A stretch of 48,578 bases of DNA. Origin: an uncultured Bacteroidia bacterium (lineage in GTDB: Bacteria; Bacteroidota; Bacteroidia; J057; CALAJH01). The stretch spans positions 1-48,578 of the forward strand of contig CALAJH010000055.1 of the NCBI GenBank assembly GCA_937922655.1, given 5' to 3'. Positions 1,683 to 15,010 of this stretch are shown one piece after another. The stretch's first letter is position 1. The number at the start of each line of letters is the position of its first letter. The notes under the pieces are model-generated. The model was given only the letters and a program-made list of their open reading frames with translations, was not told the DNA's origin and made no database searches. Made by a program: the position numbers and the translations under genes.

Positions 1683-1708
1683 CAATAGGGAATGCCGAAA
1701 ATACAAAT

Positions 1709-1749
1709 GCCAAAGCCTTTGCCGTACGCGAGCAAATTACGGCTTTGGC
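1709..1749 (-). repeat. Hairpin, element A (conserved loop)
   Basis: GCCAAAGCC (1709-1717) pairs perfectly with GGCTTTGGC (1741-1749). A second stem, TTTGC (1718-1722) with GCAAA (1732-1736), closes a loop CGTACGCGA. Read on minus it is followed by ATTTGTATTTT, a modest T-rich tail. The same fold with a different stem but a near-identical loop recurs at 2027-2068. Orientation is assigned from the T-rich tails of both copies and is an inference. Confidence 0.6.
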
Positions 1750-1763
1750 GCCAAGTTAAATGG

Positions 1764-1796
1764 TTTGCTTGACAACCACGGAGGTTTACAAGCAAA
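1764..1796 (-). repeat. Two-tier stem, element A
   Basis: TTTGCTTG (1764-1771) pairs with CAAGCAAA (1789-1796) and encloses a smaller hairpin AACC (1774-1777)/GGTT (1783-1786). The matching structure in element B is at 2175-2214. In both, the TAA ending a short minus-strand reading frame falls inside the structure. Confidence 0.5.
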
Positions 1797-1884
1797 GCGT
1801 ACTTTGTCCTCTATTCGGTTGGAGCAGTCTACCAATTGTTAGGTCGCCGGCCTCTCGCATTAAAAATCGAAGCCAACAACCCAT
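1786..1884 (-). CDS. Possible 32-codon small ORF in element A
   Basis: An ATG at 1884 opens a 32-codon minus-strand frame that ends TAA at 1786-1788, just inside the two-tier stem. The C-terminal part reads IGRLLQPNRGQSTLCL. No ribosome-binding site is clear and I do not recognise the peptide. It is listed because element B has a similar-sized frame (2206-2307) ending at the same structural position, with a weakly alike tail (RLQSELL). It may be chance. Confidence 0.2.
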   Translation of the reverse strand: MGCWLRFLMREAGDLTIGRLLQPNRGQSTLCL

Positions 1885-2026
1885 CTATAGGAGGTCAATC
1901 GCCAATTCGATTGACACGCGATTTTAAAAATTTAAAAAATAAAATCCAAAACAGCCGCAAAATTCTCAAAAAATTATCTCCGCCTTCTTCAAAAAGCAAC
2001 CGAAAACAAAAATTAAAAAAAGAAAT

Positions 2027-2068
2027 GCCAAGTCCGTAACCGCACGCGAATTACTTTAAGGACTTGGC
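2027..2068 (-). terminator. Hairpin, element B, with T-run on minus strand
   Basis: GCCAAGTCC (2027-2035) pairs perfectly with GGACTTGGC (2060-2068). An inner GTAA/TTAC stem (2036-2039/2051-2054) holds a loop containing CCGCACGCGA. On the minus strand the stem is followed by ATTTCTTTTTTTAATTTTTG, so it looks like an intrinsic terminator for a leftward transcript beginning somewhere in 2215-2450. Compared with 1709-1749, two stem pairs differ by compensatory changes (A-T to G-C and G-C to T-A). Confidence 0.55.
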
Positions 2069-2174
2069 GTCAGCTCACGCCGGCGAAAAACCGGCAAATT
2101 CGCTCTTAACGAATACGTGCTTTGGAAAAAACATACGTTTTTCCGCGTCTAAACGCAACAACGTTGGTTGGTCT

Positions 2175-2214
2175 TTGCTTTAAGCTTGCCCTGAGGGCTC
2201 GTGACTTAAAGCAA
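2175..2214 (-). repeat. Two-tier stem, element B
   Basis: TTGCTTTAAG (2175-2184) pairs perfectly with CTTAAAGCAA (2205-2214). It encloses GCCC (2188-2191)/GGGC (2195-2198). Further small hairpins lie between this and 2068: GCCGG/CCGGC at 2079-2095, ATTCG/CGAAT at 2098-2114 and GGAAAAA/TTTTTCC at 2124-2144. Such dense pairing suggests a folded RNA or a mobile-element end. Confidence 0.55.
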
Positions 2215-2307
2215 TTCGGATTGAAGCCGCTTCCAATAAACGGCAGGCATTAAACAAGGCGCAAAGCAATAAAGTTCTTTCAAGCGGGAGTAAAGCGACA
2301 AATTCAT
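2206..2307 (-). CDS. Possible 33-codon small ORF in element B
   Basis: An ATG at 2307 opens a 33-codon minus-strand frame ending TAA at 2206-2208, inside the two-tier stem, as in element A. It contains CLMPAVYWKRLQSELL near its end. I do not recognise it, there is no clear ribosome-binding site, and the length is well within what occurs by chance. The parallel with element A is the only reason to list it. Confidence 0.2.
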   Translation of the reverse strand: MNLSLYSRLKELYCFAPCLMPAVYWKRLQSELL

Positions 2308-2453
2308 TTCGGCGGCCAAATTACTTGTTAAAAAAATGCGACCGCGTCAATTTTGTCCACAAAGTGTATCCGGACGTTCGAAAATTCGTAATATTGGGCG
2401 TTGAAAGGATAAATGAAATAGCATCCATTCCGAAAGCACAAGAGTTATAAAAT

Positions 2454-3371
2454 ATGGAAAATTTAATACCGGCGTTGATACTTTTGGGGGGCGGATTCGC
2501 GTTGCTGCGCTCCTTTGTTTTTGTGGTTAAACAACAAACGGTGGCGTTGGTGGAACGCTTGGGCAAGTTCGAGCGGGCGGCCACCCCCGGTTTGAACTTC
2601 AAAATTCCGTTGCTGGATTCAATCCCCGCGCGGGTCAATATGCGTGTGCAACAACTGGACGTGGCCGTCGAAACCAAAACCGAAGACGACGTTTTCGTCC
2701 ACATTCAGGTCTCGGTTCAGTATATGGTCGACCCCGCCAAAGTCTACGAGGCCTACTACAAACTCAACAACGTCAAAGAACAAATCACCTCTTATGTTTT
2801 CGACGTGGTGCGTGCGCGGGTGCCGCTCTTAAAACTTGACGACGTTTTTTCGCACAAAGACGAAATCGCCGACGCCGTCAAAGAAGAGTTGCAAACGACG
2901 ATGAACGAGTTCGGTTACAAAATCATCAAGGCGTTGGTTACGGACATCGGACCCGACGAAAAAGTCAAAAACGCCATGAACGAAATCAACGCGGCGACCC
3001 GTATGCGCATGGCGGCGGCGGAAAAGGGCGAAGCCGACCGCATCCTCAAAGTCAAAGCCGCCGAAGCCGAAGCGCAAAGCAAAGAACTGCAAGGCCGAGG
3101 CATTGCCAATCAACGCAAAGCCATCATCGAGGGACTGAAAGAATCGGTCGAAGAGTTTCAAAGCTCCATTCAAGGCTCGACGGCACAAGACGTGATGATG
3201 CTCGTGCTCATGACCCAATATTTCGATACCTTAAAAGAAGTGGCGGAAAATTCGCGCACCAACACCATCATGATACCCAGCTCCCCGGGCGGACTGGAAA
3301 ACCTAACCGAACAAATTCGCAATGCCATTCTTTCGGCCTCCGAGATTTCCAAAATTTCGGGAGGCAATTAA
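2454..3371 (+). CDS. SPFH/band-7 (stomatin-like, HIR-type) membrane protein
   Basis: 305 aa. An N-terminal hydrophobic segment (about 3-25) anchors the protein. It is followed by an SPFH domain (about 26-200) with the typical entry TVALVERLGKFERAATPGLN and the later run RVQQLDVAVETKTEDD. An Ala/Glu-rich helical stretch (AEKGEADRILKVKAAEAEAQ, about 183-202) is the oligomerising coiled region. Length and order match the stomatin/prohibitin group, closest in feel to plant hypersensitive-induced-response (HIR) proteins. Such proteins form ring assemblies that organise membrane microdomains. It heads a plus-strand run: the MCE gene starts 12 bases after its stop, so the two are probably one transcript. 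The precise cellular role is not deducible. Confidence 0.88.
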   Translation: MENLIPALILLGGGFALLRSFVFVVKQQTVALVERLGKFERAATPGLNFKIPLLDSIPARVNMRVQQLDVAVETKTEDDVFVHIQVSVQYMVDPAKVYEAYYKLNNVKEQITSYVFDVVRARVPLLKLDDVFSHKDEIADAVKEELQTTMNEFGYKIIKALVTDIGPDEKVKNAMNEINAATRMRMAAAEKGEADRILKVKAAEAEAQSKELQGRGIANQRKAIIEGLKESVEEFQSSIQGSTAQDVMMLVLMTQYFDTLKEVAENSRTNTIMIPSSPGGLENLTEQIRNAILSASEISKISGGN

Positions 3372-3383
3372 AAATCGTCGTTC

Positions 3384-4346
3384 ATGGCCAAACCCGTCAT
3401 TCCCAAAGAATTAAAAGTTGGCGCGTTCGGCGTGGCGGCGTTGGTGCTTTTGATTGTCGGAATCAACTACCTCGAAGGCACGAACGTTCTCAGTCGCCCC
3501 GTCGTCTATCATGCGAAATACCCGCATGTCGACGGTCTGACGCCGGGCTGCTTCGTACGCCTCAACGGCTTTAACGTCGGAAAAGTCGAGGCCATGAAAC
3601 TGCGCCCCGAAAGCGGAATTTTCGACGTGGCCATGGAAATCCACGAAAAAATCGACGTCCCCGAAGACAGCCGCGCCACCATTGGTTCGTACGATATGTT
3701 CGGTACCAAGTGCGTAATTCTACATTTGGGGAAAGCCAAAAAAATTCTTTCCCCCGGCGACACCCTGCGCGACAGCCTCGCTTTGGGGATATTCGACAAG
3801 CTCGACGGCATGCTCACGCCACTGGGCGCAAAACTTCAAGCCGTTCTCGACGATATCGCCGTCATTACCCAAGAAATGCGCGAAACCACCCAAGATTCCA
3901 ACAACCGCGTCAATCGCATCGTTAAAAACGTCGAATCGGTTACATCCAACGTCAACGTCTTAACGGGAGACTTTCGCACTACCGCCGCAAAAATCAACGT
4001 CCTAACGGACAGCCTACGTTTGTTGGCGGGCGAATACAAAAACAACCCAAACCTGCACAAAATTTTAGCGAACACCGCAAAAATTACCGACACGCTTGCC
4101 GTCGCCACCGGCGACCTCAAAAGCATCATGCAAAGCGCCAAGCAAGCGGCGGAAAACATCAACGCCATCAGCTCGCGCATCCAAAACGAAGAAGGCGCCT
4201 TGGGTAAAATGGCCCTCGACCCCCAAATCGTCAAGAACTTGGCCGACGCCTCCAAAGACCTCGATATTTTACTCGTAGACTTAAAGACCAACCCGCAACG
4301 CTACGTTCATTTCAGCCTTTTTGGCAGAGGAAAGAAGTTAAAATAA
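3384..4346 (+). CDS. MCE/MlaD-family lipid transport protein
   Basis: 320 aa. One N-terminal transmembrane helix (about 11-29, GVAALVLLIVGINYL) is followed by an MCE domain (about 38-115) with the hallmark VDGLTPGCFVRLNGFNVGKV. A long helical region then extends to the C-terminus (repeated Asn/Thr/Ser-rich helices, 140-300). This is the layout of periplasmic MlaD-type substrate-binding subunits of phospholipid ABC importers. The MlaE permease and MlaF ATPase are not adjacent and do not occur in the window, so partners must be elsewhere or absent. It is probably co-transcribed with the SPFH gene (12-base gap) and the small exported protein after it (15-base gap). Confidence 0.87.
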   Translation: MAKPVIPKELKVGAFGVAALVLLIVGINYLEGTNVLSRPVVYHAKYPHVDGLTPGCFVRLNGFNVGKVEAMKLRPESGIFDVAMEIHEKIDVPEDSRATIGSYDMFGTKCVILHLGKAKKILSPGDTLRDSLALGIFDKLDGMLTPLGAKLQAVLDDIAVITQEMRETTQDSNNRVNRIVKNVESVTSNVNVLTGDFRTTAAKINVLTDSLRLLAGEYKNNPNLHKILANTAKITDTLAVATGDLKSIMQSAKQAAENINAISSRIQNEEGALGKMALDPQIVKNLADASKDLDILLVDLKTNPQRYVHFSLFGRGKKLK

Positions 4347-7725: not shown

Positions 7726-8898
7726 TCAGCGATAAAGGCCGTTCCTTTGGGCAAGGGCACGCTCGACGACAAAGCGGTTCGTTTCGATGCGTATGTTATG
7801 GTAAATTCGCATTTCGTTGACGCGGTCGAACCACGCGTTTCCTTTAAGCAAATAAACGCCGGCGTTAAAGAGGCGGTCCAAAATGCGGAAGGGGTTGTAG
7901 CGCTTGGCCACAGGATGAAACATATAAAGTCGTTGATAAACGTCGTCCCAAGCCTTGACGCAAACGCGATTGATTTTTTCCATGTAATCCGGGGCTTGAA
8001 TTTCGCGGCAAAGGGCATCGAACACCGCCGATTCGTCCGTCAAATGTACACCCGATTCGTCGAATCGAAAAAATACGTGTTCAAAAACCGGCACGTCGTT
8101 CCATTGCAACGCAACCCCCAAAGAGACGTACCAGCGCGGGTCGGGACGGGGTTTGGCGGTCGGAAAATAAAAGTTTCCTAGTGAATAGTAAATCGGCTTT
8201 TCCCGCCAAATTTCACGGGCTTGAAGGACGTGGGGGTGCGAGGCGACGACGGCGTCGGCGCCGGCGTCTATCAAGCCGCGATAGGCGCGGCGCCATTCGG
8301 GAAGCGGCAGGGTTTCCATTTCAAAACCCGCATGCGGCAAAACGACGGTCAAACAACCCTCCGACTTGCAACGGGCGATGGTTTCGTAAATTTGTGGATG
8401 GAAAATCCATGCGTATCCGGGCGCGTCGTCTTCGATTAAACAACCGAATTGGGCTTCGCCCGCCCCTATAAGCGCCAATTTTTTGCCGTTTTTTTCCAAA
8501 ATCAACGGACGATAGGCATCGGCGCGGGTCATGCCGGCACCAAAGGTTTGGATGTTTTTGGCGTGCAATGCGTCGAGAGTGTTTTTCAATCCTTCGGCGC
8601 CGAAATCCATGACGTGGTTGTTGGCCAAAGACGCGACGTTGAATGGAGCCGTCATCCTTTCCCAACCTTCCGATTGGGCTATCGCCGGTCCGATTTTCGG
8701 CAAAGGTTTTGCGCCTCCCGAAACCGGCGCCTCGAAATTCACGACGCGGAAATCAAAAGCCGTAATCCAATCTGCAACCTCTTTTGTATACGGGTTCGAC
8801 GGCGGTACAACGCCCGCCGCCATATCCCCGACAAACAATATTTTCACGTCTAAATAGGATAAACCGATGCCGTTGCGTAATGTAGCGGCATCGGTCAA
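7726..8898 (-). CDS. CapA/PgsA-family metallophosphatase-like protein
   Basis: 390 aa with the calcineurin-like CapA fold signatures: GDMAAG (Gly24-Asp25), NFEAP (54-58), LANNHVMDFG (Asn93, Asn94, His95), His189 in LPHAG, and SHPHV (His221, His223). Together these supply the metal-binding site. CapA/PgsA relatives take part in poly-gamma-glutamate or capsule synthesis, but many are uncharacterised phosphoesterases. No signal peptide or membrane helix is seen, unlike classical PgsA, which argues against a capsule anchor role. The start lies 19 bases after the stop of the giant PKD protein upstream, so the two are probably co-transcribed. The ATG at 8898 is used; a GTG at about codon 18 is an alternative. 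Confidence 0.85.
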   Translation of the reverse strand: MTDAATLRNGIGLSYLDVKILFVGDMAAGVVPPSNPYTKEVADWITAFDFRVVNFEAPVSGGAKPLPKIGPAIAQSEGWERMTAPFNVASLANNHVMDFGAEGLKNTLDALHAKNIQTFGAGMTRADAYRPLILEKNGKKLALIGAGEAQFGCLIEDDAPGYAWIFHPQIYETIARCKSEGCLTVVLPHAGFEMETLPLPEWRRAYRGLIDAGADAVVASHPHVLQAREIWREKPIYYSLGNFYFPTAKPRPDPRWYVSLGVALQWNDVPVFEHVFFRFDESGVHLTDESAVFDALCREIQAPDYMEKINRVCVKAWDDVYQRLYMFHPVAKRYNPFRILDRLFNAGVYLLKGNAWFDRVNEMRIYHNIRIETNRFVVERALAQRNGLYR

Positions 8899-8917
8899 AG
8901 TAAATTTTTTGACCGGC

Positions 8918-14986: not shown

Positions 14987-15010
14987 ACGGCACGCGCGAG
15001 GGCGTGCCGT
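14987..15010 (-). terminator. Intrinsic terminator of the SprB-repeat gene
   Basis: On the minus strand ACGGCACGC and GCGTGCCGT form a perfect nine-pair stem with a six-base loop, followed at once by TTTTTATT. It lies about 50 bases after the stop codon at 15060, in the right direction. Confidence 0.88.

Follow-up and report, generated by a model that had tools for sequence, protein, structure and literature searches.

The gap between folC and the SPFH gene

The window, i.e. the whole stretch of 48,578 nucleotides that was analysed, is contig C55, one of 84 that make up a 3.58-Mb genome. It has Bacteroidota-like traits, namely a 1361-aa protein with a C-terminal CHU_C type IX secretion domain. 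Of 16 genes checked, 8 have upstream a box matching TANNTTTG at all six fixed positions, so that the genome matches the promoter type of the phylum. At its left edge the window includes the 5' end of a minus-strand 16S rRNA gene. A plus-strand gene, which we read as folC from its Mur-ligase domains, stops at 1682 and is followed on the right by a gap of 771 nt. To the right of the gap are an SPFH/band-7 gene (plus strand, 2454-3371) and an MlaD-type gene (3384-4346).

The two hairpins that are the subject of this work sit in the gap. Hairpin A1 (1709-1749) and hairpin A2 (2027-2068) were found by folding and alignment at the positions where an earlier, sequence-only reading had put them. Read on the minus strand, A1 consists of a 9-bp basal stem, a 4-nt 5' bulge and a 5-bp inner stem, with a bulged U, two C-G pairs and the loop CGUA at the top. 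The architecture of A2 is the same, but its loop is CGUG and its bulge has 5 nt. The register holds in the minus-strand alignment, and the 16 pairs (9 basal, 5 inner, 2 apical) all form in both hairpins; five of them are changed on both sides, one goes from C-G to a U-G wobble and none is broken. The outer pairs GCCAA/TTGGC and the common loop (CCGYACGCGA on the plus strand) are present as the earlier reading had described them. The compensatory changes that it saw in the outer stem affect 2 of the 9 pairs, and the inner stems, which it described as different, covary when put in register on the minus strand.

When the partners are shifted by 1-3 columns the pairing between A1 and A2 falls to 25-47%. 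Column shuffles matched the observed pairing in 20 of 500 cases, which is close to the most that a comparison of two sequences can give. The pairing pattern is compatible with selection on structure, which with n=2 does not amount to formal proof. The earlier claim of selection on an RNA fold is supported for hairpin A by the compensatory changes and also by the fifth inner pair of A2, a U-G on the minus strand that turns into a C-A mismatch when the plus strand is read. Plus-strand coding of hairpin A was considered and rejected, i.e. A1 opens a 21-codon frame and A2 stops after four codons.

The two hairpins are real and related beyond chance. None of 2000 dinucleotide shuffles reached the local alignment score of the gap halves, and 9 of 2000 did so when the A-rich flank was left out. 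It is conspicuous that the stems have changed in matched pairs and that the loop is almost kept: the apical sequence of 10 nt, CCGYACGCGA on the plus and UCGCGURCGG on the minus strand, is nearly identical, and the sole loop change from A1 to A2 is A to G (minus strand).

The similarity stops about 8 nt on either side of the hairpin, and what lies beyond is at the level of shuffled sequence (233 of 500 shuffles were as good, 184, 159 and 674 of 1000 and 524 of 1000 in further comparisons). A reading of the gap as two copies of one whole element, which the first description implied, thus finds no support, since only about 58 nt are in common. That description also included a second recurrent structure at 1764-1796 and 2175-2214. 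Both are genuine hairpins, here called B1 (1764-1796, minus strand; 8-bp stem, internal loop, 4-bp stem, loop UCCGU) and B2 (2173-2214, minus strand). Each is stable and both contain TTTGCTT/AAGCAA. Their recurrence was not confirmed, as their likeness is no better than that of shuffles; B1 is separated from its own A hairpin by about 14 nt and B2 by about 105 nt. The homology of the B structures together with a common upstream block, collinear by eye, was rejected for failing the shuffle tests.

Strand, termination and upstream folds

On the minus strand each hairpin is immediately followed by a U-tract, which is not the case on the plus strand. A1 (-20.0 kcal/mol) runs into AUUUGUAUUU, with the U-tract AUUUGUAUUUU at 1698-1708, and A2 (-17.1 kcal/mol) into AUUUCUUUUUUU, with the U-tract AUUUCUUUUUUUAAUU at 2011-2026. 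The T-run that had been pointed out after the second copy is thus present after the first one as well (2026-2011 and 1708-1698, respectively). A stable stem-loop with a U-rich tract within a few nucleotides characterises intrinsic terminators; both hairpins have these features and, on the minus strand, A1 and A2 look like intrinsic terminators. Because it does not tolerate the bulges, a strict terminator scan of 1600-2520 came back empty. A looser scan also called many hairpins inside genes and is therefore not specific. The window has other intergenic hairpins with U-tracts, e.g. after both tRNA genes. At 14988-15009 a perfect 7-bp hairpin (GGCACGC/GCGTGCC) lies between genes with T-tracts on both strands, and is apparently an ordinary bidirectional terminator.

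Upstream of A1 on the minus strand the sequence is strongly folded. The interval 1756-1920 gave z -4.33 and the interval 1690-1910 gave z -3.81, and in neither case was any of 200 shuffles as good. Over 1697-1922 the folding energy is -81.2 kcal/mol on the minus strand vs -68.4 on the plus strand. The minus-strand window 1831-1950 ranked second by z (-4.04) among 404 background windows, itself included, that were drawn from the whole 48.6 kb in a coarse-step scan. The segment 1691-1810 has a z of about -4.2 on both strands. The strongest single background fold is at 8791-8910 (z -4.5 on the plus and -3.2 on the minus strand) and spans the junction of genes ending at 8898 and 8918.

We propose that the folded region belongs to a small RNA gene, RNA1 (1697-1922, minus strand, about 226 nt, with predicted boundaries), that would be transcribed from about 1922 to about 1697. 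From 5' to 3' its fold would comprise a junction, hairpin B1 and, as its intrinsic terminator, A1. The junction is enclosed by the closing stem P1 (1919-1916 with 1800-1797, minus strand) and contains hairpin H1 (1894-1915, minus strand, a perfect 8-bp stem with a 6-nt loop) and hairpin H2 (1840-1883, minus strand), in which 1883-1869 pair with 1854-1840. Five of these 15 pairs are G-U on the minus strand, so that the stem would exist only in a leftward RNA; H2 is not formed in the plus-strand folds. Leftward transcripts, which the earlier reading suggested, are supported for hairpin A by the minus-strand U-tracts and by the strand asymmetry of this upstream fold.

A candidate -7 box, TAAATTTT, is located at 1927-1934 on the minus strand; it is of the TANNTTTG type with 5 of the 6 fixed bases, and TTTG (4/4) sits 23 nt upstream of it. 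The consensus was taken from PMC6847099 and PMC7366714 and the numbering, in which the first base of the -7 box is -12, follows PMC6847099. The predicted start near 1922 would lie about three nucleotides ahead of the point where pairing in the fold begins. On the minus strand of the window, 771 nt contain on average about 1.7 boxes with 5 of 6 bases; the A/T-rich gap has seven. The frame from the first AUG of the proposed RNA1 has 32 codons, a length that is not telling for coding. The anti-Shine-Dalgarno-like motif CCUCC occurs twice in RNA1 (minus strand), at 1890-1894 between H1 and H2 and at 1780-1784 in B1; Bacteroidota are described in PMC6847099 as being without Shine-Dalgarno sequences.

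The second proposed gene, RNA2 (2009-2311, minus strand, about 300 nt, with an uncertain 5' end), would start near 2311 and end near 2010 in A2. The promoter-box search gave a weak -7 box, TAATTTGG, at 2323-2316 on the minus strand. RNA2 does not fold unusually well (z -1.41, equalled by 8 of 100 shuffles). In 2211-2490 the scan segments are at the level of shuffled sequence, save one at z -1.39 on the plus strand. The U-tract of its terminator is better than that of RNA1. RNA1 is the stronger candidate of the two, because the body of RNA2 folds like shuffled sequence and its promoter box is poor. A 33-codon frame (MNLSLYSRLKELYCFAPCLMPAVYWKRLQSELL; 2206-2307, minus strand) begins at the first AUG, 5 nt into the proposed RNA2. 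It is short enough to have arisen by chance, but it may encode a small protein.

The same data can be read without any functional small RNA. The hairpins would then be nothing more than duplicated terminators, which would keep leftward read-through, such as that of antisense transcripts begun close to the SPFH promoter, from running into the convergent folC. The confinement of the similarity to the terminator speaks for this, as do the unremarkable structure of the upstream part of RNA2 and the weak promoter boxes. A bare terminator leaves unexplained, however, why the minus-strand fold of 1756-1920 is strand-specific and far above chance, and a plain terminator needs no conserved loop. We consider this explanation rather unlikely, if worth keeping in mind.

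Transcription in the other direction was also weighed. A1 and A2 lie upstream of the SPFH gene (2454) in the same orientation and are stable on both strands, so they might be tandem structured elements, e.g. tandem aptamers, in the 5' leader of an SPFH/MlaD operon. But 385 nt separate the end of A2 from the SPFH start, no U-tract follows the hairpins on the plus strand, and neither H2 nor the fifth inner pair of A2 forms on the plus strand. Nor is there an Rfam match, and the neighbours of SPFH differ in the four closest relatives that were examined, with no like hairpin in the SPFH loci scanned for the loop-in-stem motif. A plus-strand leader seems to us quite improbable. Conserved synteny with SPFH was dropped on account of those differing neighbours. 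A riboswitch or T-box leader was likewise rejected, as folC, the first gene that a leftward transcript would meet, is encoded on the opposite strand, and no Rfam aptamer was found on either strand.

Searches for relatives of the hairpins

Homologues elsewhere, on which the sequence-only reading had made its claim depend, were not found in relatives, in the order, class and phylum samples, in GTDB, or in viral, plasmid and phage sequences. The nearest relatives searched are of the same order, with none of the same genus or family among them. Genome counts include the genome of the window, the sets overlap, and stricter filters were applied above 40 genomes. A DNA search of the own genome and 59 relatives gave short matches only, many of them in A/T-rich stretches.

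Three covariance models were used, R1 for the outer stem of hairpin A, R2 for the fold of 1756-1920 alone (one sequence) and R3 for both stems of hairpin A on the minus strand. R1 gave 15 rows in relatives, of which 13 were not A1 or A2, and 12 of these 13 were inside open frames 100 or more codons long. Across the order (22 genomes) it found no homologue. In the class sample (395 genomes) it gave five extra rows, four in open frames of that length and the fifth (L153) resembling an ordinary terminator; these five matches at E up to 0.02 compare with about 8 expected by chance in the 395 genomes. With R2, nothing convincing came up among 59 relatives, where the top score was 17.5 bits (E 0.13). 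R3 scored the two copies in the own genome at 83.2 and 81.0 bits, and the next match, inside a long open frame, at 22.9 bits. In 100 relatives it gave two matches beyond the two copies, both in long open frames, and in the phylum sample (395 genomes) no homologue.

A pattern scan of GTDB, which may leave out records very near the genome of the window, returned 45 loci in many phyla. The best of these reached 17.5 bits with R3 vs 81-83 for A1 and A2, and they are therefore chance matches. A limited literature search found no report of this element.

Hairpin A has only two copies in the 3.58-Mb genome, which bears on the possibility of a single-stranded DNA or mobile-element structure, i.e. attC-like, REP-like or transposon-end hairpins. 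Two copies with a kept loop and a changed stem could be taken to suggest such a structure, but the restriction to two copies speaks against it, and no homologue of hairpin A was seen in plasmids, phages or viral contigs. The loop motif CCGYACGCGA has 43 exact sites in the genome vs 27 for its reversed control, and the stem architecture of hairpin A is absent at the 30 genomic loci of the motif that were examined. We hold this origin to be highly improbable. REP, IS200-type and attC hairpins were rejected as specific candidates, as dispersed copies are absent from this genome and a scan of eight neighbouring proteins gave no recombinase.

With E as high as 5, neither strand matched any Rfam family, in agreement with the original statement that the element could not be matched to 6S, RNase P, tmRNA, SRP or a known riboswitch. 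A divergent housekeeping RNA missed by Rfam, above all 6S RNA, has one point on its side: the 6S model (RF00013) is empty in this genome and also in a Bacteroides control genome, so that a divergent 6S RNA could hide anywhere. Against it stand the silence of Rfam here and the fold itself, which has no long rod closed by the 5' and 3' ends, and the RNase P RNA lies elsewhere (C39:52897-53242). This is the least probable of the explanations considered. 6S RNA itself was rejected for want of a rod with a central bubble closed by both ends, and for the silence of RF00013.

Two candidate small RNAs and known systems

The reading that we moderately favour is that the gap between folC and SPFH holds two tandem small-RNA genes, both leftward on the minus strand, each ending in a copy of one intrinsic terminator hairpin. 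The common terminator would have arisen by duplication, after which the stems drifted by compensatory change and the apical loop was kept. The analysis itself shows that A1 and A2 are related, how they pair, the U-tracts and the strand bias of the RNA1 fold; transcription, the transcript ends, the duplication and any regulatory role, whether by base pairing or by protein binding, are what we infer. The pair is probably one of lineage-specific small RNAs and not a new kind of system, because the searches of other genomes brought up no relative.

The kept loop (UCGCGURCGG, minus strand) could conceivably be a docking site for a protein or a loop-loop contact, so that the sibling RNAs, whose sequences are otherwise unrelated, would share a partner through their terminators; we think this unlikely. 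After the A to G change six consecutive loop-loop pairs between RNA1 and RNA2 are still possible on the minus strand, and the run is broken on the plus strand. Complementarity for kissing loops is not above chance for loops rich in G+C (2117 of 5000 shuffles were as good), and it is thus the conservation of the loop that argues for a function.

If the genes are transcribed, they would be a tandem sRNA pair in a Bacteroidota lineage that has no family-level relative among the genomes searched, with a terminator loop kept while the stems covary, a hint that terminator loops can carry function. If they are not, the locus is a duplicated terminator. Neither reading overturns known biology.

Intergenic sRNAs with a Rho-independent terminator are described as common in Bacteroides thetaiotaomicron (PMC7366714), and the proposed RNAs are like them in being intergenic and ending in such a terminator. 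The criteria given there for intergenic sRNAs are an own start site, read coverage and a 3' Rho-independent terminator, of which the last is found in both RNA1 and RNA2. A usual further requirement is the absence of a protein-coding frame, and from the first AUG of RNA1 and RNA2 there are only the short frames of 32 and 33 codons, which say little either way. Unlike the B. thetaiotaomicron sRNAs, the two are predicted from sequence, and the Rfam search gave no sequence relation. In the same source 27 of 49 high-confidence sRNAs are strain-specific, so that a pair restricted to one lineage would not be unusual.

Paralogy is also known from the phylum, where FopS is a paralogous sRNA family of Bacteroides whose members likewise have a terminator hairpin (PMC11697453). 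As described there, FopS members have a common single-stranded 5' seed stretch followed by the terminator, whereas RNA1 and RNA2 have only the terminator in common and RNA1 is heavily folded. No Rfam family was matched at E up to 5, which bears on FopS only if the release includes a model for it. The tandem siblings OmrA and OmrB, with a common 3' end and differing middles (PMC4211561), are comparable to the proposed pair, whose genes would also lie side by side and be alike at the 3' end but not in the middle. In RNA1 and RNA2, by contrast, the relation is over the terminator only, with no common 5' part detected, and A1 and A2 are more diverged than OmrA/OmrB, by compensatory change. With intrinsic terminators in general, A1 and A2 share an intergenic location and a stable stem running directly into a U-tract; what sets them apart from plain terminators is the presence of two bulges and of a nearly identical apical sequence of 10 nt.
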